From Bacteroidales bacterium (GTDB lineage Bacteria; Bacteroidota; Bacteroidia; Bacteroidales; UBA932), in the NCBI GenBank assembly GCA_024398105.1, contig JAKSJP010000002.1, positions 83,681-147,680 of the forward strand: DNA of 64,000 nucleotides. The letters run 5' to 3'. The position numbers were made by a program, and so were the translations under genes. The first letter of the stretch is position 1. The number at the start of each line of letters is the position of its first letter. Under the pieces are notes generated by a model. That model saw only the letters and a list, made by a program, of their open reading frames with translations, was not told the origin of the DNA and did no database searches. Shown here one piece after another: positions 5,372 to 60,815 of the stretch.

Positions 5372-5383
5372 ACGATTGTTCAC

Positions 5384-19064: not shown

Positions 19065-19076
19065 ATCGGGAAAATG

Positions 19077-20834
19077 TTACTTCACAACTGGGTGCACGTT
19101 CCACTTTGCGAGGAATTCCTCGGCGTTGTCGTGGTTGTCGTTCGCAGAGTTGCCGGTAAGTTTAGGGTTTGCGTTGAGAGTTCCCTGGAATATCGGGAAG
19201 TACTCGTGGCCTGGCTTGAAATACTTGTAGGAATAGTCCTTTGCAGTATCGACGGTAAGCTCCTCTGAGCTTGCCTCCGGCTGGAGAAGATAAGCACTAT
19301 GCTGGCTGATCTGGTCAAGACGCTCCTGATTGTAGAAGAAGCCCCAGCGGATGAGGTCGATGCCACGGCCGTTCTCACAACCGAACTCCTTTGGACGCTC
19401 AACGTTCGCGATCTGCTCGAAGAGAGCATCTGCTGTAGTGAAGTCAGAGCTCTTGAGGTCAGGAAGTGCCACACGGCGACGTACCTCGTTGATCCAGCCG
19501 AGAGCGAGATCTGAAGGACCGTGAAGCTCGTTCTCGCACTCTGCAGCACGGAGAAGCACGTCACTGTAGCGCATGAGTCGGAGGTTCACACCGCACTTGA
19601 GGCCTGTCACGATATCCTTGTAGATGTTGTTGCGTGCATTGGTATTCTTTGCGATCACAAGACCACCGTTAGCTGCGTTGGTAACAGGAGATGCAGAGAT
19701 CTCTTCTGTGTAGATGACATTGCAGCGTGGGTCACCCTTAGGGTATGCAGCAGTCTTCGCACCTGTATAGCTGTTGTACTCAGACTCGTATGAAGCGATG
19801 GTCCAATAGAGTCTTGGGTCGAGGGTACCGTCGGTACATCTCTCAGCCTTGAAAAGGTTGTAGAGCCATGGTGACGCCGCAAGGTCGCCCCAGCTGCCGT
19901 TTGCTGCAGGGCCGCAGTTGCTTTCCACTGCATGTCCCTGAGAAGCATTCCTGGAGATGTTGACAGGAGTCCACTCGTCGTCGGTACCGCCCTTGCCATA
20001 GTCCATGAACTGTACCTCGAAGAGGCTCTCGGAATTGTTCTCGAACTCAACGCCCTCCTTGAAGTTCATACCGTAGTCCGGCATGAGCTCGTAGTGGCCG
20101 TACTTGCCATCGATGATGTCGGTGAGGACATCAAGGGCCTCAGCATACTTATGACGGAACATATATGAGCGCGCAAGATAACCTGCCGCCGCGCCACATG
20201 TCGCACGGCCTGTAGCCCACTCACCGCCCTTGTCACGGCTTGGAAGGAGTGTCATCGCCTCGGCGAGATCCGCGTCGATGAGGTCGAACACCTCGTCCTG
20301 CTCTACGTTTGCAGAGAACATGGTCTCGAGTGAAGAGTACTGGCTGTAGTCAGTGAAGAGAGGGACTCTCTGGTAGTAGGTGGCAAGCTCATAGTAAGCG
20401 AGTGACCTGAGGAAGAGGGCCTGGCCCTTGATCTGATTGTATGCCTCGCTGCCTGGCTTCACAGCTGTCTCGACCTTGAGGAGGACGTAGTTACAGCGGT
20501 TCACCACATGGAAGCAGTCACGCCAGATCCACTGGCAGCCGATCTCATCGGTATTGGCGACATTGAGGTTGTCATATGGAAGGTACCATACCTGGCCTGG
20601 ATTGTAGACCTCGTCACCACGTACAGCGTCCATTGTATAGCCGACACGTGCGAAGGTTCCTTCAAGACGGATTCGGTTGTAGCATGAGATGATGGCCTCC
20701 TTGAGGTCAGACTCGCTGTTGCCGAAGTCGTATGTTGTCTGGTTGTTAGGGTTCTTGACGTCAAGCGCACCGCTGCATGAAGCCATGCCGAGAGCGATAG
20801 TCGCTGCCCCGAGAATATTTATGATCTTTTTCAT
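19077..20834 (-). CDS. SusD/RagB-family outer-membrane lipoprotein
   Basis: This protein of 585 residues acts as the surface cap for the neighbouring SusC. I chose the start at 20834, which gives the standard lipoprotein signal MKKIINILGAATIALGMASC with the lipidated Cys at 20; an ATG at 20852 would add six residues. The body has the helical repeats of the family (GQALFLRSLAYYELATYYQR, MRYSDVLLRAAECENEL) and the C-terminal RPKEFGCENGRGIDLIRWG block. It follows the SusC gene by a few tens of bases and precedes the GH43 gene by 12 bp, so it belongs to the second polysaccharide locus. Confidence 0.93.
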   Translation of the reverse strand: MKKIINILGAATIALGMASCSGALDVKNPNNQTTYDFGNSESDLKEAIISCYNRIRLEGTFARVGYTMDAVRGDEVYNPGQVWYLPYDNLNVANTDEIGCQWIWRDCFHVVNRCNYVLLKVETAVKPGSEAYNQIKGQALFLRSLAYYELATYYQRVPLFTDYSQYSSLETMFSANVEQDEVFDLIDADLAEAMTLLPSRDKGGEWATGRATCGAAAGYLARSYMFRHKYAEALDVLTDIIDGKYGHYELMPDYGMNFKEGVEFENNSESLFEVQFMDYGKGGTDDEWTPVNISRNASQGHAVESNCGPAANGSWGDLAASPWLYNLFKAERCTDGTLDPRLYWTIASYESEYNSYTGAKTAAYPKGDPRCNVIYTEEISASPVTNAANGGLVIAKNTNARNNIYKDIVTGLKCGVNLRLMRYSDVLLRAAECENELHGPSDLALGWINEVRRRVALPDLKSSDFTTADALFEQIANVERPKEFGCENGRGIDLIRWGFFYNQERLDQISQHSAYLLQPEASSEELTVDTAKDYSYKYFKPGHEYFPIFQGTLNANPKLTGNSANDNHDNAEEFLAKWNVHPVVK

Positions 20835-20861
20835 ATTCATTATCCTGTTCAAGATTCAACT

Positions 20862-23800
20862 TTAGAATGAAAGCTTAGCTCCGAGCATGAATGTCATTGG
20901 AGTAGGGTATGAACAGTAGTTGTAGCCTGGAGTGAATGTACCGCCGGCGAAGTCAATGTTGTAACCCTTGTAAGCTGTGAGAGTGTAGAGGTTCTGGGCT
21001 GTAAGGTATACACGTACACCTGAGATGAGACCCTTGAACCAGTCATCCTTGAAGTTGTAGCCGATCTCGACATTGGAGATCTTCCAATATGCGCCATTCT
21101 GGAGGAATCGTGCGCTGAAGAGGTCGTTTGAGATAGAACCTGTGCTTGCGTATGCTACTCGCGGAGTAGTCGTGCTGTGGTTCTCAGGAGTCCAGGCTCC
21201 CATGAGCTCGGTGCTCTTGTTTGCAAGGCCGTATGATCCGCGGAGAGCCATGTCGACATAGTCAAGTACCTTGAAGCCGGCTGCACCGAAGGTAGAGACG
21301 TTGATGTCGAAGTTCTTGTACTCGAGACGGAAACCGAGACCGAAGTTGACCTTAGGCATACCGCTTGCGAGGAAATCCTGGTCAGAGTCAGTGATCTGTC
21401 CGTCGCCGTTCACGTCGATATATCTTACGTCACCTGGCTGAGCGCCGTTCTGGTTGACGAACTTGCCTTCCTTGTTGAAGTTGTTGTCGATCTCGTCCTG
21501 AGACTGGAAGATGCCGTCGAACACATAGCCATAGAAGCGGCCTACCTCCTGACCTACGACTGTACGGCAGAAACCGTCTGTACGGCCTTCACCTGAGACG
21601 CCGAGTGAGGTCACCTTGTTCTGAGGGATGGTGAGGTTACCGGTGATGTCATACTTGAGCTCGTTGTCATAGTTATGGAAACCGGCTGAAAGCTCGAAGC
21701 CTGAATTGACCATGGTAGCCGCATTCATGGTGACGCTGCCGTTTGTCGCGCCTGCCTCTGCAGGGACTGCCACGCTGTAGAGGAGGTCCTCAGATACAGA
21801 TCTGTAGTAGTCTGCGTTGATCTCGAGCTTGCCACCGAACATTGCGTAGTCCACACCGACGTCGAGAGTCTTCTTCTTCTCCCAGCGGATAGCTGTGTTG
21901 ACATAGTTAGAGACTGCAGAGCCTGTCACCTTGTTGCCACCGAAGCTGTATGAGTAGTCGCCACGTGCCATTGTGTCCATGTACTGATATTCACCGATGT
22001 TCTCGTTACCGAGGATACCGTAGCTGGCACGGAGCTTAAGAAGGCTTACAGTGTGAGGATCAACCTTGAAGAAGTTCTCCTTGTCGATTCTCCAACCTGC
22101 AGAGAATGAAGGGAACCAGTCCCAACGGTCGTCTGAAGAAAGACGGCTTGAACCATCACGACGTACGGTTGCCTGGAGAAGGTACCTGCTGTCATAGTCG
22201 TAGTTGAGACGGCCGATGTAGGAAGCAAGGACGTGCTCGCTCTCGTAGCTGCCTGCGTTTCTGGTCTCACCGTTGCCTACCTGGAGGTAGTATGGCTCAG
22301 GCATGTTGATACCTGTACCTGTGAGATTGTGGTAGTACTCACGCTCGAAGGTCTGGCCTACGACTGCGTTGATGTGGTGGTTGCCGACCTTTCCGTCGTA
22401 TGTGAGATAATTCTCGACGAGACCGTCAGTGTATGTACGGTAACCCTCAGAGAGAGTCTCATTTGTCTTGGAAAGGTAGTTTGTAGTACTCTGGATGAAA
22501 GCAGGGATGAATGTGAAATCCTTTGCGAAAGTCCTGCTGTATGAGACGTTGAGGTTGTAAGAGAGGCTGTGGTTCTCCACACTCTTGCCGAACATTCCGA
22601 AGAGGTCGACATTAGCTGAACCTGTTGCCACTATACGGTCTACCACATTGTTTCTCTCAAGGAGATTGTTGGTAAGGAGAGGGTTGGTCATACGGAGGTC
22701 ACCATGGACATAGTCAAGGTATGTACCGTAGCCGTAAGAGTCGTATGAGTAAGCAGATGCTGCACCGAGGATGCCGTCAAGGCACCATGTGCTCTCGTCG
22801 TATGCCTTCACTGTAGGAGGCATGAGGAGGGCTGAAGCCATCACAGGATACTGCTGGCCATAGAGACCCTGGACATACTCATTTGCATTTGAGAGACCCA
22901 TGTTGTCCTGCTTGCTGTGGCTATATGTAACGCCTGTGCGGAGCTTGATGAACTTTACGTCCATGGTATTGTTCACACGTGCAGTGAAACGGTCATAGTT
23001 CGGACCGGCGCCCTCAAGTGTACCTCTCTGGCTGAAATAGTCGAGAGCGACGTTGTATGTGCTTGCGTCGCCGCCACCCGAAAGGTTGACATTATGGTTC
23101 TGACGCACACCGATCTTGAACATCTCATCATACCAGTTGGTATTGACCTGCTTTGGATCGATATAGTTCTCGCTGCCTACGATATATCCGCTTGGAGCGT
23201 CCATGTTGCTGTTGCCATAGGCCTGACGGATATGCTCTCCATACTGAGCTGAATCCATCACGTCGTATACGCCGCTCTTGATCTTGTCGATACCTGCATA
23301 GCCTGAGTAGTCTACTCTCATGCCCTGGTTCTTCTTTCCGCTCTTGGTGGTGATGATGATCACACCGTTGGCAGCACGTGAACCGTAGATAGCGGCAGCA
23401 GACGCGTCCTTGAGGACCTGGATGGTCTCGATATCGTTTGGTGAGAAGTCACGGATAGAGGTACCCATAGGGACACCGTCGATGACATAGAGAGGGCTGG
23501 TGTCACCGAAGCTGCCCAGACCACGGATGCGGACTGCAGGGTTTGCACCTGGCTGACCGTCTGATGTGATCTGCACACCGGCAACCTTACCCTCGAGCAT
23601 TGTCGAGATGTTGCTGTTTGAGATCTTCTTCATCTGGTCTGCGTCTACGATAGATACAGAACCGGTAAGGTCGACCTTCTTCTGCGAACCGTAACCTACG
23701 ACTACGATCTGGTCAAGGAGTGTGGACTCCGGTGTGAGATTGATCACGCCGAGGTCTGTACGGCCGTTCACTGCGATCTCCACAACCTCGAAACCGATAG

Positions 23801-24059
23801 AGGAAATCTGGATTGTAGCGTCTGCAGGGACCTGGAGAGAGAACTTACCGTCGATGTCGGTAGTTGTTCCAGTAGTTGTACCAGGGACGATGACACCCAC
23901 GCCGATAGCCGGCTCACCGAACTCGTCGAGTACGGTACCTGTAACGGTCACCTTGTCCTGCTGCATTGCCTCGAAAGCAGCTGCATCAGCTGTGAAGCTT
24001 GCCATAGGGGCAGCTGCAAGCAATGCGCATACGAGTGATTTTGCAATTATATTTTTCAT
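20862..24059 (-). CDS. SusC/RagA-family TonB-dependent outer-membrane receptor
   Basis: This 1065-residue transporter moves glycan fragments into the periplasm using TonB energy. It shows a signal peptide (about 1-26), a carboxypeptidase-regulatory-like domain (about 37-110, VTVTGTVLDEFGEPAIGVGV), the box LDQIVVVGYGSQKKVDLTGS, a plug with VRIRGLGSF and the VLKDASAAAIYGSRAANGVI signature, and a barrel ending MLGAKLSF. It lies 18 bp after the surface lipoprotein gene and just ahead of its SusD partner. The arabinanase-like GH43 in the same unit suggests arabinan as substrate. Confidence 0.95.
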   Translation of the reverse strand: MKNIIAKSLVCALLAAAPMASFTADAAAFEAMQQDKVTVTGTVLDEFGEPAIGVGVIVPGTTTGTTTDIDGKFSLQVPADATIQISSIGFEVVEIAVNGRTDLGVINLTPESTLLDQIVVVGYGSQKKVDLTGSVSIVDADQMKKISNSNISTMLEGKVAGVQITSDGQPGANPAVRIRGLGSFGDTSPLYVIDGVPMGTSIRDFSPNDIETIQVLKDASAAAIYGSRAANGVIIITTKSGKKNQGMRVDYSGYAGIDKIKSGVYDVMDSAQYGEHIRQAYGNSNMDAPSGYIVGSENYIDPKQVNTNWYDEMFKIGVRQNHNVNLSGGGDASTYNVALDYFSQRGTLEGAGPNYDRFTARVNNTMDVKFIKLRTGVTYSHSKQDNMGLSNANEYVQGLYGQQYPVMASALLMPPTVKAYDESTWCLDGILGAASAYSYDSYGYGTYLDYVHGDLRMTNPLLTNNLLERNNVVDRIVATGSANVDLFGMFGKSVENHSLSYNLNVSYSRTFAKDFTFIPAFIQSTTNYLSKTNETLSEGYRTYTDGLVENYLTYDGKVGNHHINAVVGQTFEREYYHNLTGTGINMPEPYYLQVGNGETRNAGSYESEHVLASYIGRLNYDYDSRYLLQATVRRDGSSRLSSDDRWDWFPSFSAGWRIDKENFFKVDPHTVSLLKLRASYGILGNENIGEYQYMDTMARGDYSYSFGGNKVTGSAVSNYVNTAIRWEKKKTLDVGVDYAMFGGKLEINADYYRSVSEDLLYSVAVPAEAGATNGSVTMNAATMVNSGFELSAGFHNYDNELKYDITGNLTIPQNKVTSLGVSGEGRTDGFCRTVVGQEVGRFYGYVFDGIFQSQDEIDNNFNKEGKFVNQNGAQPGDVRYIDVNGDGQITDSDQDFLASGMPKVNFGLGFRLEYKNFDINVSTFGAAGFKVLDYVDMALRGSYGLANKSTELMGAWTPENHSTTTPRVAYASTGSISNDLFSARFLQNGAYWKISNVEIGYNFKDDWFKGLISGVRVYLTAQNLYTLTAYKGYNIDFAGGTFTPGYNYCSYPTPMTFMLGAKLSF

Positions 24060-24077
24060 GATATTGATGCCTTTATA

Positions 24078-25763
24078 TTATTCGTAGAGTACAAGGTAAG
24101 ACTCCTCTGTCACGAGTGCCATCTGGAGATCGTCACTGTTTACTGTCATCACATAGCTCTGGAAATGCTCCTCGCCATCTGCATACTTCACGTCGTATCT
24201 GACAGCAGCGGTACCGTCTCCGTTGTTGGTCACGGTGATGTCGACCATAGACATGTTGAGGCTGCTCTTGAAGGAATCCCAGTTCCAGTTTGACTCAGCC
24301 TGTGCAGCGTCATATCCGCCGCCCCAGCCGAAGTGGTCCATACGTACTACGCCATACTCCTCGAGAGCAGCATTGCGGAGAATTGTACATGGGCTGTGGT
24401 AATTCTCGAGATTGTCAGAGTAAAGCATCATCTTAAGGGTCTTGCTCTCGCCTGCTGCGATGACATAGTCCTCTGAGAATGTGCTCCACCAGCCGTTTGT
24501 GAAGTCAGGGCTTCCTACAGCTGATGTACCCTTGATGACCTCGACCTCGCAAGTGGTCTCGATAGTAGAGGTTGAACCCTGGTAAGAGATCTTTACGGTC
24601 TGGTTTCCAGCCTCTGCAGGAACTTCACCGAACACGAGGTTCTCGTTGCTGATGACACCCTCTGAGCCGTCTGCGTAGGTTGCAGTCACCTCGACGCCCT
24701 CCGCATTGAAGCGTACCGGAGCGTCATATACATAGTATGTAGTATAAGAAGGAGCCTTTGACACCTCAAGTGCAGTAACTGCATTTACCACCTCAAGTGT
24801 ATAGTAGCCATTGACAGGCTTGCATGAATTGCCCTGCTTTGTGACAGCGTATGAATATACGATTGTCTTCACTCCGACCGTAGTGAGGTCTGGTACTGTG
24901 AATGTCACAGCATCGATGTCGACCTGAGCGCTTGTACCGTCCTCATAAGTGACTGTAGCGACTGCGTTGCCGATAGCGTCCTCATCACCGATCTCAAGAA
25001 GGGTAGGATATCCTGTGACTACGATTCCGGTAGGATTCTGGTCAGGAATCTCCTCGATCTTGGTAGGAATGAGATATGCCTTCTTCATCTCGAACCAGCT
25101 CGCGTCAGTGGTGATGTTGATGAAGAATGGAGAAGCAGAGAAGCCTTCCTGCTGGTAGGTCTCGGTGATCTTGAAGTCATAGCCTTCTTTCTCAGCGACT
25201 GCTGTCATGACAACGAGACCCTGGGTTGAATGGTCAACCTCCACGGTCACGTACGCGTTATCCATAAAGTTGTCCTTGAAGTCATCCCAGTCTGCGAGCT
25301 TGCCCTCCTCGAAATAGTCGATAGAGAGGACACCTGGCCATGAGAATGCGTAGCCGTCTGCTCTTACCACGAAGTATTCCTGGTATGAGCTGTCGTCGTC
25401 TGTACCGTTACCTGCGACGTTTGTACATACTACGTTCCAGTTGTTCCAGTTCGAACCCTTGGAACTGTGATTGACGAACTCGAAGTGAAGAAGCTTTCCT
25501 GTCGGGACTTCGAAATGCTGAGAATGGTCAGCCCACCAGCCTGAAGAGAAATCTTCTGATCCGACGATTGCCTTTGTGATGTCGACGACGGTTGTGTCGC
25601 CATGGCTCTGAGCATTCTTCTCTGCTGCTATCGCATCGATCCTTTCCTGGAGATCTGCAGGTGCATTGACCTGGAACATATCTATCTCAGAACATCCGAT
25701 AAATGCCGACGCCGCAAAAAAGAGTGCAGAGAATGCACCAAGCACCTTTGTAGACGTTTTCAT
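24078..25763 (-). CDS. surface lipoprotein with Ig-like domains, likely glycan-binding protein
   Basis: This 561-residue lipoprotein has its lipidated Cys at 24 (AFIGCSE). Two regions of similar type, about residues 70-200 and 435-545, each contain a TDFTNGWW or SEDFSSGWW-like opening and SWNW/WDDFK features, suggesting a duplicated beta-sandwich carbohydrate-binding module. Between them lie two bacterial Ig-like domains (YPTLLEIGDEDAIGNAV near 260 and APVRFNAEGVEVTATYADG near 350). As the first gene of the unit it probably acts as the surface glycan-binding partner of SusCD, but no ligand can be read out. A TATCTTTG box lies about 75 bp upstream. Confidence 0.75.
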   Translation of the reverse strand: MKTSTKVLGAFSALFFAASAFIGCSEIDMFQVNAPADLQERIDAIAAEKNAQSHGDTTVVDITKAIVGSEDFSSGWWADHSQHFEVPTGKLLHFEFVNHSSKGSNWNNWNVVCTNVAGNGTDDDSSYQEYFVVRADGYAFSWPGVLSIDYFEEGKLADWDDFKDNFMDNAYVTVEVDHSTQGLVVMTAVAEKEGYDFKITETYQQEGFSASPFFINITTDASWFEMKKAYLIPTKIEEIPDQNPTGIVVTGYPTLLEIGDEDAIGNAVATVTYEDGTSAQVDIDAVTFTVPDLTTVGVKTIVYSYAVTKQGNSCKPVNGYYTLEVVNAVTALEVSKAPSYTTYYVYDAPVRFNAEGVEVTATYADGSEGVISNENLVFGEVPAEAGNQTVKISYQGSTSTIETTCEVEVIKGTSAVGSPDFTNGWWSTFSEDYVIAAGESKTLKMMLYSDNLENYHSPCTILRNAALEEYGVVRMDHFGWGGGYDAAQAESNWNWDSFKSSLNMSMVDITVTNNGDGTAAVRYDVKYADGEEHFQSYVMTVNSDDLQMALVTEESYLVLYE

Positions 25764-25838
25764 TTTGTGATTGAGTTAATATTGGTTAAAAGTGTTGTCT
25801 TGTGTGTACTTTTTTCAGTGGTTACAGTAACACAGATG

Positions 25839-25846
25839 CAAAGATA
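25839..25846 (-). promoter_or_regulatory. -7 box of the second polysaccharide locus
   Basis: TATCTTTG on the minus strand, an exact TAnnTTTG match, gives a leader of about 70 bases before the lipoprotein ATG at 25763. It lies between the regulator gene and the locus, where a regulated promoter would be expected. Confidence 0.6.
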
Positions 25847-25894
25847 TGTACGAAAAACGCCTGTCGCAGTTTGATTTTAGACCTATTGGGTGGA

Positions 25895-28870
25895 TTATTG
25901 TGCACCGATTTTCCCGAAGGAGCTTGGAGTCATGCCGACTTCCTTCAGGAAACACCTCGCGAAATACTTCGGATCATTGAACCCGGCCTCATATGCGATT
26001 TCCGAGATAGTCTTGTCGCCATGGTTGTTCATCAGCATCTCCTTCGCGATCGAAAGCCTGTAGTTTCGGATGAACTGACCGATGGACTGACCGAGGCTTT
26101 CCTGCATCTTCTTGTTCAGAAGAGTCTTGCTCATGCCGATTTCCTCGCAGAAAGTCGGAACGTCGAATTCCGGATCCTTATAATGCTCACGCACCACATC
26201 GATAGCCTTCTTGGCAAACTTGTCCTCTGCCGCATGGCTTTCCTGAAGCATCCTGTGTGCCGCCAGTTCCTCATTCTGGCGAAGAAGGACCATGTTCTGA
26301 CGGGACAGTTCCTCCGCCTTTTGCTCCACGAGCTTTTTCTGAGTCTTGATCTCCGCCGTCCTTTCCTCTACGATCCGCTCAAGTTTCTCTTTCTGACGGA
26401 GGAGATTCCTCAGCCTGAGATCGTGGATCAGCATCAGGACTGCACTCACGACAAGAAGCAGTAACATATAGAACCACCATGAGTGGTAGAAATATGGTCT
26501 GACCCTCAGCGGAAGAGAAAGCAGACCCTCATCGGTTCCCTCACAGTCGACCGCCCTGACTTTAAGGACATAATGTCCTTTCCTGAGAGAATTGAATGCT
26601 ACGAAATTCCTCTTTTCAGGAATGTCCGTCCATTCCTTGTCCTGTCCCTCGAGCAGGTAGCTGTAACGCACGGAAGAGTTCCCCTTGAGAGAAAGGTCGG
26701 AGAAACTGATCGTAACGGACTTGTCCCTCTCGTGAAGGTCAAGCCTTGTAAGATATGGATTATTGTCCCTCCTGCTACCTACCATGATCTCTGTGATGAC
26801 CGGCCTTGGAGCCGCTGCGGAAAGCATATTCGTCGTCGGATCGATCACGCTGAGGCCTCCCGTACTGCCGAAATAGAGCAGGCCGTCCCGTCCTCTGAGC
26901 CCGGCATTCCAATAGAACTGGTTTGACACAAGTCCGTCCGCCTCCTTATAGGTAGTGAACATTCCGGTAGCAGGATTGAAGCGAGAAAGGCCGTTCTCAG
27001 TCGAGATCCACAGATTGCCTGACTGGTCCTCGAGAATATATTTCACAGAATCATTGGCAAGTCCGTCTGACGTGCTGTAGTTCACGAAACTCATCGCTCT
27101 CCCTTCCTCGACAAGCTTGTAGAAACCGTTTCCTGTACTTCCTACCCATATGGTCCCATCCTCGCCCTGTGCAATACAAGAGACCTTCTCCAGAGTACCT
27201 GACGCAGGATCGTCCAGCTTATTGCGCATATGTTTCACCGGAAAGACCTTCTTACCTGACACGACCGAGCTCTGTTTCAGGTCATAGACCTGCAATCCGG
27301 TCTGTCCTCCTATCCAGAGCCGTCCCCGCCTGTCAATCAGCGAGCCTATACATCCGAAGGACTGGTCATAGTCTGAATGATACGATTCCCCGGTATCGGG
27401 GTCAAAGTAAAACACACCTCCATTGCAGCCTACCCACATCAGATTGTTGTACGGGTCATATTCCATCGCTCCAATGAAGCTCAGATCCTCACCGGTCTCG
27501 CTGCAGGTCCTTATGTTCATGGCAACACGCATCGGGTCTTTCCCGTCAAGGACGTCGATTCCACCGCCCCAGCTTCCTACCCACATACGTCCCTGACCGT
27601 CACTGCAGAATTCACTGACAGAATTGTGGCTCAGGCCTCCGTCTGCGACCGTGAAACGTCTGAAGCCTGACCAAGCGTCTGACAGACAACTGATTCCACT
27701 TTCTACAGTTCCTACCCAGATACAGCCCTGAGCATCCTGATAGACAGCATTCACATTGTTTGGAGCGATCGAGCCCGGGACATTCCTCTGATGGACATAA
27801 TTGTTGATGTCCAGCTGCTTCGGCCGGATCTGAATGATGCCTGCATTCTCGCTGCCTATCCATATATTCCTGCCATGGACTTCCATGCAGTTGATGAAAT
27901 TACTGTTAAGAAGGCTCGGCGAGCCAGGGGTATAGATGATCCTCTCGAAGTCATCCTCAATCGGATTATAGACATTCAGACCAAGCAACGACGCCACAAG
28001 AATCTGATTATCAGATGTCAGCGCGATACATGTAAGATAATTCTGCGAAAGCGACGCAGGATCCCCGTCGTCGTGCATATAATGCTTGCCTACTCTGCCA
28101 GTGACATCATAGCGGTACACGCCTGCCGAAGTTGATATCCATACCTCATTGTCCTTTATCACGAAATCCGAGATATATGTACTCCTTCCACAATCAAGAT
28201 TCTCAAGTATCCTCTTCGCCCCGACCGTGCCATCCTGAGCGGCACTCAACCTGAAGACCTGGCCATGGATTCCGATCCATACGCTTCCGTTTCTCTCGAC
28301 GTCCTTTACCGTGACCGAATTTGAGAGTATCCTCTCATCCCTATATATATTACACGAAAGGACATCACCGACCTCGTCAAAGGCGATCCTGACCACATTC
28401 TCACCGATGACGGCCCAGATACAGCCGTCAGTTGACCTGGTGAGATATGACACATTTGCCGTCACGAGGTCCTGCGGGACCTTGTCCAGAATATCGCAGT
28501 TTGAGAAATCCTGAATACTGATGACATCCAGGCCGCCTTCAGAGCCGACCCAGATGCGCCTGAATGCATCTTCCTCAATATTATGCACGAAATTATTCCT
28601 GATCCTTGGCTGCCTGTTCGTCGAGATAGTGACAAAGCCATAGCCATCATACCTGCAGAGACCTCCTCCGGCCGTCGCCGCCCAGAGGAAGCCGGCATCA
28701 TCAATGAGGATGTCATCGACATAACTGTTCGGCAGTCCATCTTCCGGAGTGATGAACCTTGCAAGTCGTCCTGATCCAAAGTCCTGCGCGTCGCAGACAT
28801 TGCAGAGCACGCTGAATGTCAGGCTAAGGAGTGTAATAAGTGTGGTTATTTTCGATATCGTGGTTTTCAT
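25895..28870 (-). CDS. propeller-sensor membrane regulator with AraC DNA-binding domain, no kinase
   Basis: This protein of 991 residues looks like the outer parts of a hybrid two-component system. A signal peptide is followed by many Reg_prop-type beta-propeller repeats (for example DDAGFLWAATAGGGLCRYDG), a Y_Y_Y domain (SFSDLSLKGNSSVRYSYLLE), one membrane helix (about 798-818), a coiled coil (about 820-880) and an AraC-type helix-turn-helix (about 885-985, SEIAYEAGFNDPKYFARCF). No histidine-kinase H box, ATPase domain or receiver domain is present between helix and HTH; classic Bacteroides hybrids of 1300-1400 residues have all three. Start at 28870 gives the best signal peptide. Its place next to the arabinan-type locus suggests it controls that locus in response to a periplasmic ligand. 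Confidence 0.88.
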   Translation of the reverse strand: MKTTISKITTLITLLSLTFSVLCNVCDAQDFGSGRLARFITPEDGLPNSYVDDILIDDAGFLWAATAGGGLCRYDGYGFVTISTNRQPRIRNNFVHNIEEDAFRRIWVGSEGGLDVISIQDFSNCDILDKVPQDLVTANVSYLTRSTDGCIWAVIGENVVRIAFDEVGDVLSCNIYRDERILSNSVTVKDVERNGSVWIGIHGQVFRLSAAQDGTVGAKRILENLDCGRSTYISDFVIKDNEVWISTSAGVYRYDVTGRVGKHYMHDDGDPASLSQNYLTCIALTSDNQILVASLLGLNVYNPIEDDFERIIYTPGSPSLLNSNFINCMEVHGRNIWIGSENAGIIQIRPKQLDINNYVHQRNVPGSIAPNNVNAVYQDAQGCIWVGTVESGISCLSDAWSGFRRFTVADGGLSHNSVSEFCSDGQGRMWVGSWGGGIDVLDGKDPMRVAMNIRTCSETGEDLSFIGAMEYDPYNNLMWVGCNGGVFYFDPDTGESYHSDYDQSFGCIGSLIDRRGRLWIGGQTGLQVYDLKQSSVVSGKKVFPVKHMRNKLDDPASGTLEKVSCIAQGEDGTIWVGSTGNGFYKLVEEGRAMSFVNYSTSDGLANDSVKYILEDQSGNLWISTENGLSRFNPATGMFTTYKEADGLVSNQFYWNAGLRGRDGLLYFGSTGGLSVIDPTTNMLSAAAPRPVITEIMVGSRRDNNPYLTRLDLHERDKSVTISFSDLSLKGNSSVRYSYLLEGQDKEWTDIPEKRNFVAFNSLRKGHYVLKVRAVDCEGTDEGLLSLPLRVRPYFYHSWWFYMLLLLVVSAVLMLIHDLRLRNLLRQKEKLERIVEERTAEIKTQKKLVEQKAEELSRQNMVLLRQNEELAAHRMLQESHAAEDKFAKKAIDVVREHYKDPEFDVPTFCEEIGMSKTLLNKKMQESLGQSIGQFIRNYRLSIAKEMLMNNHGDKTISEIAYEAGFNDPKYFARCFLKEVGMTPSSFGKIGAQ

Positions 28871-28887
28871 TTGTCCACCTTTTGCTA

Positions 28888-28895
28888 CAAAGTTA
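28888..28895 (-). promoter_or_regulatory. -7 box of the regulator gene
   Basis: TAACTTTG on the minus strand, 17 bp before the chosen ATG at 28870. This also argues against the upstream in-frame start at 28909, which would lie outside the transcript. Confidence 0.55.
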
Positions 28896-29017
28896 GACAT
28901 AAGTAGCAAAAATCGAAGGAATTCCTCCGATTCTCAAGAATCCCACCTGAAGCACCACGTTCCCCGTTTCATCGCCGAAATTCGGCGTTTCAACTAGAAA
29001 GGGCCTGAGACAGAAGG

Positions 29018-29096: not shown

Positions 29097-29984
29097 ATGA
29101 AAAAAACTATTCTTCTTTTTATTGCCGCATTGGCTTTCTGTGCATGCGAGCGTGATTTCGATGTAAAAGACCAGATGAGTGACGGAGTCGTCCGTATTTC
29201 CTTCGCACCGTCAAACGACCATGACTCAACCTTCTTCTACGTACAGGCGACTTCTCCGGTAAAGAACGGCTATAAGGCTGCGAAGACCGCCGGTGAGAGC
29301 GTGAGTGCTACTGTCAATGGCCAGGCCATCACCCTTGAAAAGGCTCCTCAGAGAAGCAGCAAGGACGGCTGCCAGGCCTACTGGACCGACTATAAGTTCC
29401 GCAGCGGAGACGAGATCATGGTAGAAGCCTCCATCCCTGGAATCGAGCCTGTCTACTCTTCGACTACAGTTCCAGCCTCATTCCCTGAGGTAAGATGGGA
29501 CTGCCGCGCAGAAGACGGACAGATCTGCTTCGACATCGAGCACGGAGACACCCCGTCAGCATCCGGTTATTACGGAGTAGCTGTGATGGCACAGAGCAGC
29601 GATGGCTCGACATCTTATTGCACCCCTGAAGCAAGTGAGGGCCTGCACATTTTCCAGCCAGAGAGAATCAACGAGAACTGGCTGCAGGCAGAGTGCTGCA
29701 GCAAAGTCCTTGCCTGGAAAGACCTTCCAGGTAAGTCATCAAAGACTTGCAGACAGCTGATCAAGGTACTCAAGGCCGACGATGCCATCCGCTACAGGCT
29801 TATATTCTACAGCTTCGACGAAAACAGTTTCAATCACCTCAGGGCCCAGGAGAACATCCTCAACGACAAGTTCGCCATCCCTGGACTGGCACCAGTATCC
29901 TTCGCATTCACCAATGTCAGGAACGGAGCAGGTATCTGCGGTTCATATATCACCAGCGAAACCGACTGGTTCTTCATAAAATAA
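29097..29984 (+). CDS. DUF4249-type lipoprotein
   Basis: This 295-residue lipoprotein has its lipidated Cys at 17 (FCACERD). It is mostly beta strands, with an early segment resembling the DUF4249 start (VRISFAPSNDHDSTFFYVQA), an Ig-like stretch (SATVNGQAITLEK, EIMVEASIPGIEPVYSSTTV) and a C-terminal part ending in SYITSETDWFFIK. DUF4249 proteins of Bacteroidota are usually encoded next to a TonB-dependent receptor, as here, and are thought to be its surface partner; their ligands are unknown. A promoter box lies 51 bp upstream, while the receptor behind it also has its own box. Confidence 0.78.
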   Translation: MKKTILLFIAALAFCACERDFDVKDQMSDGVVRISFAPSNDHDSTFFYVQATSPVKNGYKAAKTAGESVSATVNGQAITLEKAPQRSSKDGCQAYWTDYKFRSGDEIMVEASIPGIEPVYSSTTVPASFPEVRWDCRAEDGQICFDIEHGDTPSASGYYGVAVMAQSSDGSTSYCTPEASEGLHIFQPERINENWLQAECCSKVLAWKDLPGKSSKTCRQLIKVLKADDAIRYRLIFYSFDENSFNHLRAQENILNDKFAIPGLAPVSFAFTNVRNGAGICGSYITSETDWFFIK

Positions 29985-30006
29985 GACCACAATAAGAAAA
30001 AAATGC

Positions 30007-30014
30007 TATATTTG
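30007..30014 (+). promoter_or_regulatory. -7 box before the TonB receptor gene
   Basis: TATATTTG lies 27 bp before the ATG at 30042. It suggests a second, receptor-specific promoter in the 57-bp gap after the DUF4249 gene. Confidence 0.5.
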
Positions 30015-30041
30015 CGAGACTGACTCTTGTATCTTGTAAAT

Positions 30042-32267
30042 ATGGCAAACAGACTACCGTCCACGGCAGCACTGCTATTGCTTGCTATCTTAATATCTTT
30101 CAGTAATGCGTATGCCCAGCCAGCGGCGTATGCAGAAGGTGACTATGACATTGTCCTCGACTCTCTCGACGCATCCAGGATCTCCACTGACAGACATAAG
30201 ACAGCAGCCCGTTCCCAGACCGGGCTTACAAGACTCGACTCCAGAAAGATCAACAACGGATTCGCACTTTTCAATTCCCCTGACGTCATAAAGACCATCC
30301 AGCGCCTTCCAGGAGTCGCATCCGGGACTGAACTTCTTTCGGGGCTCTATGTCCATGGAGGCACCGGCAGCGACAACCTGTATCTCCTCGATGGAATGCC
30401 GCTATATTCGGCAAGCCACCTGATCGGCCTTTTCTCATCATTCAACCCGGACGTCATAGAGAACGTGGATTTCTACAAGAGCGGATTCCCTGCAAGATAT
30501 GGAGGCAGGCTCTCGTCCGTCGTGGACGTCAGCACCAGGGAAGGCGGCATGTACGAGTGGCATGGAAACGTATCCATAGGTCTGATAGACGGCCGCTTCC
30601 AGATCGACGGTCCGATAGTCAAAGGCAGGACATCGGTCAATTTCGGGATGAGAAGAGCCTGGCAGAACCTGCTGACCACTCCGATACTGGCATTGCTCAA
30701 CAAGAAGACGTTCAGTAAAAGCGGCGAGTCCGTGCGCGCACACTACGGCTTCTGGGACATGAACTTCAGCCTCACACAGAAGTTATCCGACAACGACAGA
30801 TTGAAACTGAGCGCCTTCTCCGGCATGGACGACATGGACGGCGGATTCGAATTCCTTTACAGCGAATACGACAAGGAGACCAGGAAGACCACCTACTACG
30901 ACGGTCGCATGCGCCAGAAGCTCGGTCTTGACCTCGGATGGGGTTCGACTACCGCAGGCCTGACCTGGGACCATGTCATCTCCGACCACGCGTCCGTCAA
31001 GACCCGTGCGTTCTACGCCCGCAGCGACAACAAGATCGGTCTGGAGATAGGCAAATGGTCATGGAAAAAGAAAGCCGAGGATCCTGACGACCTCAGCTGG
31101 GCGGCAGTCTTCCAGACGGAGGACAACGGATCCGTTGTCCAGGACTATTGCCTGAGGGCCGACTTCGACTGGATACTCTCCGGCAGCCATCACCTACGTT
31201 TCGGAGCGTCAGCGCAGCACCATATCTATTCCCCAGTGAGAAGAGCCAAGGAATGGATGGAGAACAAAGACACTGAGAAACTAGACTATGACATCGACTC
31301 CGGTCATATCTACAAGGGAGAGGAGATAGACATCTATGTCGAGGACGAGATCCGGATAGGTAAGAGGATCACTGCGGCCCCTGGCATCAGATATTCGGCA
31401 TTCCTTGTCGGCAGCAAGGCGTACCATTCTCCCGAGCCACGTCTGGCATTAAGATACGACATCCTGAGGAATCTGGCGTTCAAGATGTCCTATACACAGA
31501 TGAGCCAGTATGTCCATATGGTCAAGACCCTCTTCATCGAGCTCCCTACCTCAAGCTGGCTGCCATGTACCGAAGAGATGAAGCCTATGCATTCAAGGCA
31601 GATTGCCGGAGGCCTCTATTCAAAGTTGCCAGGAGGTTTCCATTTTGAGATGGAGGGATTCTGGAAGACTATGGACAATCTCTACGAATACTCGGGCGGC
31701 TTCGCCCTCTACCCTCCTATCGAGCAGTGGGAATCATCCTTCACAGCTGGCAAGGGACGTTCATACGGCACTGAGCTGGGCCTGGGATGGATGACAGACA
31801 GGACCGACATCAGCCTCGCCTATACTCTATCGTGGTCGCAGAGATACTTCCCGGAGCTGTACTATGACTGGTACTTCGACAAGAACGACTACCGCAACAT
31901 GCTCAATATCAACGTCTCACATAAATTCGGAGATGCATTCGACATCTATTGCGGATGGACCTACCATACAGGAAGCCGAATCACTTTCGCCGAGCAGGCG
32001 ATTGAGGGCTATGACGGCGACATCTACACTGAGCCGAACAACCTCAGGATGCCCGCCTACCACAGGCTCGACATCGGCATGAACTTCAGACAGAGGACCA
32101 GAAGAGGCAACGAAAGCATCTGGAACCTGAGCATCTACAACGCCTACTGCAGGATCAATCCTATCTATGCCGAGATCAGGATAAACGAAGAGACAGGGGA
32201 CCCCGTAGGAAAATCCTACGGAATAATCCCTGTCATTCCTACAATCAGCTATACTTTCAGGTTCTGA
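30042..32267 (+). CDS. TonB-dependent receptor without carboxypeptidase-like domain
   Basis: This 741-residue outer-membrane receptor starts at the ATG giving the signal peptide ending NAYAQ (about residue 26). The plug is typical of the DUF4249-linked class: IKTIQRLPGVASGTELLSG, then LYVHGGTGSDNLYLLDGMP and FPARYGGRLSSVVDV. The barrel ends IPTISYTFRF. Unlike many Bacteroidota receptors of this class, which begin with a carboxypeptidase-regulatory beta domain, this one goes from the signal peptide to the plug after about 50 residues. It pairs with the lipoprotein at 29097. The ligand is unknown and need not be a sugar. Confidence 0.88.
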   Translation: MANRLPSTAALLLLAILISFSNAYAQPAAYAEGDYDIVLDSLDASRISTDRHKTAARSQTGLTRLDSRKINNGFALFNSPDVIKTIQRLPGVASGTELLSGLYVHGGTGSDNLYLLDGMPLYSASHLIGLFSSFNPDVIENVDFYKSGFPARYGGRLSSVVDVSTREGGMYEWHGNVSIGLIDGRFQIDGPIVKGRTSVNFGMRRAWQNLLTTPILALLNKKTFSKSGESVRAHYGFWDMNFSLTQKLSDNDRLKLSAFSGMDDMDGGFEFLYSEYDKETRKTTYYDGRMRQKLGLDLGWGSTTAGLTWDHVISDHASVKTRAFYARSDNKIGLEIGKWSWKKKAEDPDDLSWAAVFQTEDNGSVVQDYCLRADFDWILSGSHHLRFGASAQHHIYSPVRRAKEWMENKDTEKLDYDIDSGHIYKGEEIDIYVEDEIRIGKRITAAPGIRYSAFLVGSKAYHSPEPRLALRYDILRNLAFKMSYTQMSQYVHMVKTLFIELPTSSWLPCTEEMKPMHSRQIAGGLYSKLPGGFHFEMEGFWKTMDNLYEYSGGFALYPPIEQWESSFTAGKGRSYGTELGLGWMTDRTDISLAYTLSWSQRYFPELYYDWYFDKNDYRNMLNINVSHKFGDAFDIYCGWTYHTGSRITFAEQAIEGYDGDIYTEPNNLRMPAYHRLDIGMNFRQRTRRGNESIWNLSIYNAYCRINPIYAEIRINEETGDPVGKSYGIIPVIPTISYTFRF

Positions 32268-32342
32268 GCAAAGATTGCTTCACAGAATCATCTCTGATTG
32301 ATTTTTTGCTTATCTTTACATATAACCAAAAAGTCAAAGACC

Positions 32343-33905
32343 ATGGCAGAACTCGAAACCAGAATCCAGAAGGATATCATGGCGGCTATGAAGGCAAAGG
32401 ACACCGTCCGCCTCAACGCCGTACGTTCAATCAAGACAGCTGTTCTCGTAGCAAAGACCGCAGAAGGTGCTAAGGAGCTCGAGGACGCTGATATCATCAA
32501 GATCATAGGAAAGCTCGCGAAACAGCGCAAGGAAGCTGCCGAGCAGTATGTCGCAGCCGGTCGTCAGGAACTCGCTGACAACGAGATGGCCGAGGCTGCT
32601 GTCCTTGACGAGTATCTTCCAAAGATGCTGAGCGAGGAAGAGACAGAGGCCAAGCTCAAGGAAATCATCGCACAGGTAGGCGCGAAGGCGCCGTCTGACA
32701 TGGGTAAGGTGATGGGTGTAGCAACCAGGCAGCTCGCAGGCCTGGCAGAAGGAAAGACCATCTCGATGCTCGTGAAGAAGATCCTCTCGTCACTTGCCAT
32801 GATGCTTGTCCTTGTCATGACAGGCGTAGGTGCAGTCGCTCAGACAAAGTACTTCAAGACCCCTTCACCGGAGGGATGGGTACGTACCTCATCGACCCAG
32901 CGCCAGTCCGAGTACCCTAAGGTCAACGCAAAAGGCGAATACTGGTTCCGTTTCAAGGCTCCTGAGACAGCGAAGGACGTCAAGGTCAACTTCTGCAGCC
33001 AGGACTTCCCTGCCCAGCTCGACAAGGAAGGCTACTGGAACGTCATCACAAAGTCTCCGAAGGTAGGATTCAACCTATACTATATAGTAATCGACGGTGT
33101 ACGCTACGCTGACCCAGGCGCAGAGCTCGTATACTGCAACGGATGGACAGCCTATATGGAAGTCCCTTCAGCAGAGGATTCTTACTACCAGATGAAGAAC
33201 GTGCCTCATGGAGAGGTCCGCGAGCACTGGTTCTGGTCTGACGTCGCACACGAGTGGCGCAGAGCATATGTGTACACCCCTGCAGAGTACGAGACAAACC
33301 CTGACAAGCGCTATCCTGTCCTCTATCTCCAGCACGGCGCAGGAGAGATGGAGTTCGAGTGGACACATTCCGGATTCGCAGCCATCATCGCCGACAATAT
33401 GATCGCAGAAGGCACAGTAGAGCCTATGATCATCGTCATGAACAACGACTTCGTATACCGTCCAGGTGACAGGAGAGGCCGTCTCGCAATGGCAGACACA
33501 TGGTCAGAGAACTTCAACGACATGTTCATCAAGGAATCCATCCCTGACATCGACAAGAGCTACAGGACCATCGCCGATCCTCAGCACAGGGCCATGGCTG
33601 GTCTCTCCCTTGGTGGGATGCTCACAAATAACGTAGGTCTCGGAAACAGCAGCATGTTCGCATACTACGGAATCTTCAGCGGCGGAGTCGCTTCTGAGCC
33701 TGAGAAGATCGACAAGAACACCGTGAAGTTCATCTTCGAGACCTGCGGAGAGCTCGAGTATCCTGAGAGGATCGCCGAGAACGTCAAGCTTCTCAACAGC
33801 ATGGGAATCAAGGCCGCCACCTACGTTTCGCCGAACACCGCACACGAGTGGCAGACCTGGCGCCGCAGCCTCCACGAGTTCCTCCCACTTATCTTCAAGG
33901 ACTAA
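32343..33905 (+). CDS. in-frame fusion of YqeY/GatB-like protein and secreted CE1 esterase
   Basis: One open frame of 520 residues holds two unrelated parts. Residues 1-148 are a complete YqeY-type domain (start MAELETRIQKDIMAAMKAKD, end LAEGKTISMLVKKIL), normally a free cytoplasmic protein of about 150 residues with a role near tRNA amidation. Residues 142-167 read as a Sec signal peptide starting at an internal ATG (32766; MLVKKILSSLAMMLVLVMTG, cleavage near GAVAQ). The rest is a CE1 feruloyl/acetyl-xylan esterase: an N-terminal CBM48-like domain, [12 protein letters not shown], the nucleophile Ser422 in AGLSLGG, and the His in TAHEWQTWR. The esterase resembles the one at 59691-60800. It may be made as a fusion or from the internal ATG; the sequence cannot decide. 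Confidence 0.85.
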   Translation: MAELETRIQKDIMAAMKAKDTVRLNAVRSIKTAVLVAKTAEGAKELEDADIIKIIGKLAKQRKEAAEQYVAAGRQELADNEMAEAAVLDEYLPKMLSEEETEAKLKEIIAQVGAKAPSDMGKVMGVATRQLAGLAEGKTISMLVKKILSSLAMMLVLVMTGVGAVAQTKYFKTPSPEGWVRTSSTQRQSEYPKVNAKGEYWFRFKAPETAKDVKVNFCSQDFPAQLDKEGYWNVITKSPKVGFNLYYIVIDGVRYADPGAELVYCNGWTAYMEVPSAEDSYYQMKNVPHGEVREHWFWSDVAHEWRRAYVYTPAEYETNPDKRYPVLYLQHGAGEMEFEWTHSGFAAIIADNMIAEGTVEPMIIVMNNDFVYRPGDRRGRLAMADTWSENFNDMFIKESIPDIDKSYRTIADPQHRAMAGLSLGGMLTNNVGLGNSSMFAYYGIFSGGVASEPEKIDKNTVKFIFETCGELEYPERIAENVKLLNSMGIKAATYVSPNTAHEWQTWRRSLHEFLPLIFKD

Positions 33906-33915
33906 TTCCTCGAGA

Positions 33916-34938
33916 ATGGCAACCAAGGCCGTCATCGCAATAGACTCATTCAAGGGGCATCTGACTGCACAGGAGGCAGCAGATGCCGCTTCTGTAATGA
34001 TACGTACCCGCTTCCCCGGAATCGAGACCGACATAATCCCCTCTTCAGACGGAGGCGAGGGCTTCAGCGGGATAGTGACAGAGGCCCTTGGAGGCAGGAT
34101 GGTCGAGACCATGGTACATGACCCCCTGGGTCGTACCATAAAGGCAAGGTACGGACTGTGCGGGGGTACGGCTGTGATCGAATGCGCGGCCGCCAGCGGC
34201 CTGACTCTGCTGGCTCCTGACGAGCTCGACCCGATGTCTGCCAGCAGCCAGGGCACAGGCGAACTGATCGTCGACGCGGTCAGGCGTGGATCGAGGGAGA
34301 TCTATGTCGGACTCGGAGGAAGTGCCACGGTCGACGGAGGACTCGGGATCCTCAGGGCGCTCGCACAGGCGGAAGACGCCAAGAGCGAAGGTACCATGGA
34401 CCCGGAGGAAATGGAGATCGGAACGATCATCGAAAAGGCTGTCAAGTTCTCTTCCGGATGCCGGTTCACGGCCATCTGCGACGTTGAGGCAACCTTCTGC
34501 GGGCCAAGCGGTGCCGCGGCAGTATACGGACCTCAGAAAGGTGCTGCGCCGGAGCAGGTGCCTGTACTGGACGACAGACTCCGGACCCTGGCCGAAGAAT
34601 ATGTCAAAGTACTCGGAAGAGATGTCCTGACGCAGAAAGGGACGGGAGCGGCAGGAGGAATGTCCGGCGCAATCTGGGCTGTCCTTGGCGGAGAACTGAA
34701 GCCTGGAGCAGACGCAGTGCTTGACATACTTCAGTTCGAGAAACATCTGGAAGGGGCAGGGATTGTCATCACCGGTGAAGGAAAGCTTGACGCGCAGACC
34801 TTCCAGGGAAAGCTCCCTTTCACAGTTGCGCGTCGATCAAAGTCATACAATCCCGACATACGGGTGATTGCATACGTAGGTATTTCTGATTACCCTGAGG
34901 CCATCCCGCCCTTCGACGAGCTGATCTGCAGAGGATAG
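33916..34938 (+). CDS. glycerate kinase, apparently C-terminally short
   Basis: This 340-residue cytoplasmic enzyme phosphorylates glycerate using ATP. The GlxK/GarK-type motifs are there: IDSFKGHLTAQEAADA near the start, SSDGGEGF, the VECAAASGL-like IECAAASGLTLL, GLGGSATVDGGLGIL, FCGPSGAAAVYGPQKGA, and GAAGGMSGAIWAVLG with ITGEGKLDAQT. E. coli GarK has about 380 residues; here the frame stops after GISDYPEAIPPFDELICRG, lacking the last helices of about 40 residues. The stop lies 3 bp from the end of the converging gene. It follows the esterase fusion by 10 bp and is likely cotranscribed. Activity is plausible but unproven. Confidence 0.85.
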   Translation: MATKAVIAIDSFKGHLTAQEAADAASVMIRTRFPGIETDIIPSSDGGEGFSGIVTEALGGRMVETMVHDPLGRTIKARYGLCGGTAVIECAAASGLTLLAPDELDPMSASSQGTGELIVDAVRRGSREIYVGLGGSATVDGGLGILRALAQAEDAKSEGTMDPEEMEIGTIIEKAVKFSSGCRFTAICDVEATFCGPSGAAAVYGPQKGAAPEQVPVLDDRLRTLAEEYVKVLGRDVLTQKGTGAAGGMSGAIWAVLGGELKPGADAVLDILQFEKHLEGAGIVITGEGKLDAQTFQGKLPFTVARRSKSYNPDIRVIAYVGISDYPEAIPPFDELICRG

Positions 34939-48604: not shown

Positions 48605-48628
48605 AGCTCTGATACATAACTCATTAAG

Positions 48629-48665
48629 CAAAACCCTGTAGGTCAGTTTCACCTACAGGGTTTTG
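48629..48665. terminator. strong hairpin after the GH51 gene
   Basis: Perfect 15-bp stem CAAAACCCTGTAGGT / ACCTACAGGGTTTTG with loop CAGTTTC, starting 25 bp after the stop. The core CCTGTAGGT is the same as in the terminator at 7081-7119. Confidence 0.85.
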
Positions 48666-48693
48666 TTTATCTCGCTGTCAGCCAGCTACTTAA

Positions 48694-48732
48694 GCATTTC
48701 CCTATAGGTGAATCCGCACTACAGGGAAATGC
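48694..48732. terminator. second hairpin, after the thioesterase gene
   Basis: A 10-bp perfect stem GCATTTCCCT / AGGGAAATGC around a loop that again contains CTATAGGT and CTACAG remnants. It ends 8 bp from the stop of the thioesterase gene on the minus strand and may serve that gene. Confidence 0.65.
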
Positions 48733-48739
48733 GTAAGTA

Positions 48740-49558
48740 TCAGCGGATCAGATGCTTGCCGAAGTCTGGACGAGGGGTCGTGCGCTGACGGGCGGTGATG
48801 TGGAGGCGGCAGACCTCGTCGCCGGCGGAGTTGGTCTCGGACACGAGGAAGGCGGCGGTGCCGGGCTCGGACGCCTGGTCCGGTACCATGATCCTGGCGG
48901 TGAGGGTGTCACCGATATAGGTCTGGCGGAGGAAACGGACGGCGATGTCCTCGACATCCCAGTCTGCATCCAGATCGACAGGGATCGACTGGAGCGCGAA
49001 ATTGATGTAGCTGCGGTTGCCGACATGACGGTTGAAGTCCATGTCGCTGAAAGTCATGAGCTTGCTGATTTCCTTGACCATGGTACCGTACTTCGGGAGC
49101 AGTACCTTCTTGTGCAACGTCGCAGGTGTGCCGTCGACCGGGGAGAGGTCGAAGGTGCATATCGAGTCGATAGGGGTCGGCCTTCCCGTCTCGGCATTGA
49201 CCGGCGACCAGGTTCCGCTGCCTTTGGCGAACACGGCTCCGTCCCTGTCGAGGAGACGGTAGTCGAAGATCAGCTTCAACGCAGTGACCTCGGACAGGAG
49301 GACCTCGACGGTGACTTCATCGCCCCAATACGGAAAGTCCCCTGTCACCGTCATGGTATGGTCAGGGACAACCCACAGGAATCCGAGCGGGAGCACATCA
49401 TAAGCCCCGACGAACCTGTCGGAGAAGAATTTCGCCACGGCATCCTGGAAGTAGCCGAAAGCGGCGAATGTCGAGAGCCTGTAGTCCGGTTGCATGTCGT
49501 TGAGCGACACGACGAACCTGCTGACTATCGTCTCGTGCAGTCTGAAAGTCCTATACAT
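48740..49558 (-). CDS. acyl-ACP thioesterase (FatA/FatB type)
   Basis: This 272-residue cytoplasmic enzyme releases fatty acids from acyl carrier protein. Two hotdog domains are visible: the first from the N-terminus to about 130 (YFQDAVAKFFSDRF, LGFLWVVPDHTMTV), the second beginning at FSDMDFNRHVGNRSYINFAL, where the Asp-Asn-His pattern is the family's active-site block. It may supply fatty acids for lipid A, phospholipid or export. It lies 12 bp after the CE6-GH51 gene on the same strand; the functional link, if any, is not evident. Confidence 0.9.
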   Translation of the reverse strand: MYRTFRLHETIVSRFVVSLNDMQPDYRLSTFAAFGYFQDAVAKFFSDRFVGAYDVLPLGFLWVVPDHTMTVTGDFPYWGDEVTVEVLLSEVTALKLIFDYRLLDRDGAVFAKGSGTWSPVNAETGRPTPIDSICTFDLSPVDGTPATLHKKVLLPKYGTMVKEISKLMTFSDMDFNRHVGNRSYINFALQSIPVDLDADWDVEDIAVRFLRQTYIGDTLTARIMVPDQASEPGTAAFLVSETNSAGDEVCRLHITARQRTTPRPDFGKHLIR

Positions 49559-49570
49559 TAACCTATAATA

Positions 49571-59690: not shown

Positions 59691-60815
<1,125 letters not shown>

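Follow-up and report, generated by a model that had tools for sequence, protein, structure and literature searches.

Gene fusions are common, but when a cytoplasmic domain shares codons with a complete secreted protein joined behind it, one would expect damage to either export or the first domain. The window analyzed here, a stretch of 64,000 nucleotides from the genome of an uncultured gut bacterium of the Bacteroidales, holds an open frame of this kind and raises the question of whether the fusion is real, how it arose, and what is made from it. The two protein families involved are ordinary, YqeY being widespread, and it is their arrangement that is unusual. The features of the locus are as follows.

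30027..32267, + strand: TonB-dependent receptor (Plug; Pfam), upstream neighbour
32268..32342, + strand: leader from the TonB-receptor gene to the yqeY start, with A at -3, -6, -12 and -13 before ATG 32343
32343..33905, + strand: fused open frame, 520 aa plus stop (open frame reading and Pfam)
32343..32786, + strand: YqeY domain, residues 1-148 (PF09424 at 6-148)
32766..32840, + strand: shared YqeY tail and Sec-type signal peptide, residues 142-166 (by eye and hydropathy)
32766..32768, + strand: in-frame ATG (M142), candidate internal start (sequence)
32772..32774, + strand: GTG (V144), possible inner start and likely point of the join (the unfused relatives compared have GTA or GTC)
32841..33902, + strand: predicted mature esterase, residues 167-520 (Pfam and solved-structure matches)
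33258..33797, + strand: PF00756 esterase match, residues 306-485 (Pfam, 1.7e-13)
inside 33258..33797, + strand: esterase nucleophile S422 (GLSLGG), within the PF00756 match
33843-33845, + strand: esterase H501 (TAHEW), beyond the PF00756 match
33916..34938, + strand: glycerate kinase (PF02595; Pfam), downstream neighbour, 10 nt past the fusion stop

The frame is uninterrupted from ATG 32343 to TAA 33905, and an alternative upstream start, TTG, would open it from 32298. Its N-terminal part matches the YqeY profile over residues 6-148 (PF09424, 1.4e-42), scoring 145.6 bits against a cut-off of 27 and aligning profile positions 2-143 of 143, the last position included; among solved chains, 8xjg matches at residues 7-146 and 1ng6 at residues 5-148. 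The C-terminal part scores 51.4 bits against a cut-off of 22 for PF00756, with the GxSxG nucleophile and catalytic histidine present. Both S422 and H501 are kept in all 12 esterase rows compared, and the CGELEYP region, inspected in a search for the catalytic acid, varies among the 12. Solved CE1-type esterases match inside residues 168-519 at 5.1e-78 to 2.7e-73, namely 6mou at 174-519 (5.1e-78), the ferulic acid esterase 6rzo at 180-519 (8.6e-77), and 7b5v, a CE1 enzyme with an N-terminal carbohydrate-binding module, at 168-519 (2.7e-73). The matches to 6mou, 6mot and 7b5v begin at residues 168-187, ahead of the PF00756 match, and these entries are labelled as either an isoamylase-N-domain protein or a CE1 enzyme with an N-terminal carbohydrate-binding module; judged by sequence, the N-terminal part of the mature esterase is related to esterases with such an accessory (carbohydrate-binding or isoamylase-N-type) domain. 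The claim of the first-pass annotation that a YqeY domain runs without a stop into a signal peptide and an esterase is borne out by this single frame.

Elsewhere in the window, the regions 2372-7033, 17142-28909 and 46571-52612 carry a SusC/SusD-type pair, another TonB receptor, a GH43, one protein that combines regulator-propeller, Y_Y_Y and AraC-type domains, and a pair of arabinofuranosidases, of which one has a SASA acetylesterase domain attached; together they look like arabinoxylan-use loci. Related CE1-type esterases give 19 more match rows in the source genome, about 14 open frames as grouped, with one such frame in the window (59691-60800, - strand), a family expansion. A sigma-70 and terminator scan gave nothing useful.

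The junction and a second fusion

The inter-domain sequence of the fusion, ISMLVKKILSSLAMMLVLVMTGVGAVAQT, holds neither a stop nor a linker between the YqeY domain and the signal peptide. The YqeY match ends in the KKIL codons, which at the same time form the charged start of the hydrophobic stretch, as had been proposed for the last YqeY helix. By eye and by hydropathy, the stretch has the features of a Sec and signal peptidase I substrate (a KK n-region, a core mean of 2.68 and an AVA|Q site), and a signal peptidase I-type cut after A166 (AVA|QT) is likely. The best 12-residue Kyte-Doolittle mean, 2.68, is also that of the stand-alone esterase orthologue L009, against 0.85-1.07 in unfused YqeY tails (n=3). 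Counted from ATG 32343 the signal is internal, and it becomes N-terminal only with a start at 32766 or 32772.

An apparent fusion could also be produced by assembly, through the collapse of two separate genes over a short repeat. The source assembly is indeed a draft (2,429,203 bases in 48 contigs, 91.76% complete, 0.19% contaminated), the fusion is known from one genome of the species, and a collapse would likewise show microhomology at the join. However, the junction DNA is present once in the 2.43 Mb, the assembly has a single YqeY match, the fused one, and the junction is well within contig C12, at about 116,400, while the repeat shared at the join is probably about 8-15 bp, shorter than the usual assembly k-mers. 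The strongest argument against an artefact, which we consider very improbable, is a second case of the same architecture in another assembly, with neighbours common to an unfused genome.

This second fusion belongs to another species of the genus (genome G024, assembly 58% complete, frame L118:4794-6194). Here, YqeY passes at the same VKK(I/L)L codons into a lipobox signal (LTS|C), followed by a different exported protein, the frame reading YqeY...ISALVKKLLASFAILFALTSC. The exported part is without a confident Pfam family; its remote homologues, 22-31% identical, are stand-alone proteins, with lipoprotein-type starts such as MKTRQMLALASAFLFSIVALTSC in seven of the eight homologue N-termini. 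Upstream of this yqeY are a MutS2-type gene (MutS_V plus Smr) and a mannose-1-phosphate guanylyltransferase-type gene, and downstream of the fusion a ClpB-type gene (all by Pfam). Genome G690 provides the empty site: its YqeY, 94% identical to that of G024, ends with a stop, its yqeY has the same flanks (nucleotidyltransferase gene 88% and ClpB-type gene 96% identical), and about 975 bp in G024 stand where G690 has 19 bp (blastn blocks aligning, in segment coordinates, L118 1-118 with L224 of G690 1-118 and L118 1094-1728 with L224 138-776). A contig start lies about 5.6-5.8 kb upstream of yqeY in seven assemblies of the genus (G024:C22, G265:C51, G651:C100, G645:C49, G263:C2, G159:C14 and G705:C33), as if a repeat were shared there.

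A tree of 91 YqeY proteins pairs the genome of the window fusion (G000) with G236 (98/87) and G024 with G265 (83/88), and places G024 in a 40-row clade (97/90) with G000 outside it. Given this supported branch between the two YqeY clades, the fusions are most likely independent events. The YqeY branch lengths are 0.13 for G000 and 0.15 for its sister G236; that of G024 is 0.051, longer than the 0.021 of its sister. Because each half is complete and an independent second case shares the codons of the join, the arrangement is not put down to chance, and the sequences very probably represent a genuine gene fusion through shared codons, seen twice. The first-pass annotation had advised looking for the junction in related genomes, and held that relatives all carrying two separate genes would speak against it. 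The same join was recovered in G024, as an independent fusion, while the other relatives checked do have separate genes; its interpretation is overall partly supported.

The wider distribution of YqeY frames was surveyed at three levels. YqeY was found in 123 of 250 genomes of the genus, with five open frames longer than 250 aa, and a long C-terminal extension was present in two of the 123, G000 and G024, in a test that could miss short extensions at that end and in which the matches of at least two others, G206 and G244, do not cover the C-terminal part. The remaining 127 genomes, including 34 of the 98 with at least 90% completeness and at most 5% contamination, had no YqeY match. A profile built from the N-terminal parts of both fusions matched 211 of 400 genus genomes, a set overlapping the first, and among the matches listed only G024 and G000 reach the profile end without a stop. 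PF09424 was matched in 115 of 149 genomes of the order (308 of 393 with the two-fusion profile, in overlapping sets) and in 165 of 168 genomes of the phylum, and no further C-terminal fusion was seen among the matches listed for either. Other long YqeY frames were set aside: those of G176, G189 and G179 (264-309 aa), of G283, G344, G531 and G562, and of G572, G570, G227, G644 and G648 have their extra length upstream and a stop right behind the YqeY tail, and frames with a stop inside the YqeY match (e.g. G259, G198, G802) were not counted as fusions. Among the retrieved papers that name YqeY, no such fusion shows in the titles or abstract openings.

Origin of the fusion

The closest esterases are L009 from Candidatus Cryptobacteroides caccocaballi (82% identical), L010 (78%) and that of G001 (73%), and all three are separate genes with their own N-terminal signal peptides, e.g. 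MKKTITLLALAFAFVASASAQ and MKRIIAPIAAALLLLAANASAQ. G001 has a stand-alone yqeY as well as its stand-alone esterase, and the unfused YqeY relatives examined stop at or a few codons past a VKKLL/VRKLL-type end. An old yqeY-esterase operon finds no support as the origin, as the nearest esterases and the near yqeY genes have other neighbours: the L009 esterase is located after an aspartokinase-homoserine dehydrogenase gene, that of L010 after a PP-loop (tilS-like) gene, as is that of G001 by translation, and the yqeY genes near that of G000 in the tree have different neighbours. The yqeY of another Bacteroidales genome (L074:1616-3015) lies close to an esterase gene but is unfused: through ATGA it overlaps the start (MKKIL...) of that gene, which is shorter and different.

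An empty site for the G000 fusion was not found in six stretches around relatives of the TonB receptor from five genomes, nor in the glycerate-kinase stretch of G140, which has other neighbours; all were without yqeY and without this esterase. In the window a DUF4249 gene precedes the TonB receptor (29097-32267), while in the six stretches (G234, G012, G214, G105 and G140) the receptor relative comes first and the DUF4249 gene follows, an order that suggests a local rearrangement adjoining the fusion.

The codons at the join offer a view of how the two genes met. Both fusions carry GTG-AAG-AAG at the V-K-K codons, while, among the relatives compared, the unfused ones near G024 have GTA or GTC at the valine codon and G236 has GTC-CGC-AAG. 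Among 80 other distinct YqeY tails, 12 have GTG at the valine codon and two have GTG-AAG-AAG, counts that were made post hoc on two cases and carry weak statistics. An in-frame ATG lies two or five codons upstream of the valine in both fusions, and a methionine falls within residues 137-144 in six of the 80 other tails. The ATG of G024 is common to the unfused G265, G612, G613 and G651, and is thus probably older than the fusion. A start at GTG 32772 would yield MKKILSSLAMMLVLVMTGVGAVA|Q. The stretch V144-Q167 of G000 spans 24 residues, compared with 21-22 counted from the MKK/MKR/MKN start in L009, L010, L011 and G001, or 24 if L009 is counted from its first ATG, a spacing that fits V144 as a former start codon. 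This fits less well in G024, where the valine is 17 residues from the lipobox cysteine (22 from the upstream methionine) and homologues of the exported part have 23 residues from start to cysteine in five cases and 20 in two.

On these observations, an incoming secreted CE1-type esterase gene, with a signal peptide probably starting ATG-AAG-AAG-ATC-CTC, may have been joined by recombination to a yqeY 3′ end coding V-K/R-K-L-L. A cross-over between the GTN-AAG-AAG of yqeY and the incoming ATG-AAG-AAG start would give GTG-AAG-AAG, and is its likely origin, while the KKIL tail of G000 probably came with the esterase, replacing an RKLL such as that of G236. A join on few shared bases would leave the last YqeY helix normal and the esterase signal peptide intact. 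The yqeY end codons, conserved as GTN-AAG-AAG-CTN-CTN, resemble a typical signal-peptide start and n-region, ATG-AAG-AAG-CTN-CTN, and the occurrence of two independent joins at a single codon suggests that this likeness between helix end and signal start can create in-frame fusions. More tentatively, the yqeY 3′ end could be a landing site where recombination repeatedly adds secreted-protein genes, with GTG left as a possible inner start. If so, one gene would give rise to both a cytoplasmic protein and an exported one, with the same codons serving as a domain end and an export tag, and other genes with KKLL-type helix ends may be open to this route as well.

Translation starts and predicted products

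The first-pass annotation had pointed to an internal ATG at 32766, which is present in frame, and had offered two product models, a membrane-inserted fusion and nested starts, both of which fit the sequence. Translation initiation in Flavobacterium johnsoniae benefits from adenines at -3, -6, -12 and -13 (PMC6847099). With this Flavobacterium pattern applied to the present host, ATG 32343 has four of the four adenines, ATG 32766 three (T at -3) and GTG 32772 two (C at -3), and the two inner starts of G024 have one each. In the window, a score of at least 3 is reached by 9 of 205 internal in-frame ATGs and by 6 of 30 presumed gene starts, and ATG 32766 outscores 196 of the 205. The unpaired probability at the inner start is 0.55, compared with 0.54 at 31 presumed starts and 0.43 at internal ATG/GTG codons (sd 0.08, n=120), while the AT content of the 20 nt upstream is 0.50, compared with 0.66 and 0.45, respectively; the inner starts are without the usual AT-rich leader. 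Taken together, adenine scores and AT content favour the outer start at 32343; an inner start is possible for G000, and G024 shows no evident one.

These values bear on whether two proteins arise from nested genes, where the fusion made from the long frame would be little exported and the working esterase would come from ATG 32766 or GTG 32772. The adenine score of ATG 32766, the start-like unpaired probability and the presence of GTG in both fusions agree with this; however, the base at -3 is unfavourable at both inner codons, the upstream AT content is low, neither inner start of G024 scores well, its ATG is also found in unfused genomes, and the adenines of G000 fall in ordinary YqeY codons and need not be selected. 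We regard nested genes as possible though doubtful, and as compatible with the explanation preferred here.

That explanation, which we consider probable, is a real fusion made by recombination at shared bases, translated in full and then divided by signal peptidase, with inner starts perhaps in use as well. Ribosomes would start at 32343 and YqeY would fold in the cytoplasm, after which the internal signal would insert N-in/C-out through Sec with KK on the inner side. Signal peptidase I would then cut after A166; the esterase would be set free into the envelope or out of the cell, and YqeY would keep a membrane tail, while some plain pre-esterase may arise from ATG 32766 or GTG 32772. The released esterase would act on plant-cell-wall esters, a role that fits the window genes for GH43, arabinofuranosidases and SusC/SusD-type proteins. 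As for the tailed YqeY, two studies give some background: as the tail of GatB in yeast mitochondria, YqeY is needed for tRNA amidotransferase activity and was placed on the tRNA by a docking model (PMC4027206), and in Halalkalibacterium, yqeY is listed as of function unknown and was deleted (PMC11445130). Because YqeY is often not found in the genus, a membrane-tailed form may be tolerated.

The same frequent absence, which extends to near-complete genomes, means that YqeY may be dispensable and lends something to a neutral or decaying accident, in which the fusion exists and only one half still matters. This reading overlaps in structure with the preferred one, but the frames of both halves are intact, the catalytic serine and histidine are kept across the compared esterases, and the YqeY branch length of G000 is ordinary; we hold it to be unlikely. 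The fusion makes it testable how bacteria handle a signal peptide preceded by a folded domain, and whether the inner protein is rescued by alternative starts. Gene callers might label such a gene after only one of its halves, so that others may be missed.

Comparison with known systems places the novelty in the arrangement. The N-terminal part is like the YqeY family (PF09424; 1ng6, 8xjg) in its whole-profile match and its sequence match to solved chains, but the relatives seen are stand-alone proteins of about 148 residues, while here an export signal and an enzyme come after. The remainder is like CE1-type esterases with an N-terminal accessory domain (6mou, 6mot, 6rzo, 7b5v) by sequence within residues 168-519, although the orthologues L009-L013 and that of G001 have no domain ahead of the signal peptide. 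The G024 fusion is like that of G000 in being joined at the same YqeY codons, with GTG-AAG-AAG and no linker before the signal peptide, and differs in its lipobox (signal peptidase II type) and its unrelated exported protein. In the possibility that a shorter product starts within a longer frame, the locus resembles the in-frame nested gene of phage Ms6 lysA (PMC3111421) and the N-terminal proteoform pairs of Salmonella (PMC11005335). According to their abstracts, both of those systems yield a shorter form of one and the same protein; at the present locus the shorter product would instead be another protein, located in a different compartment.
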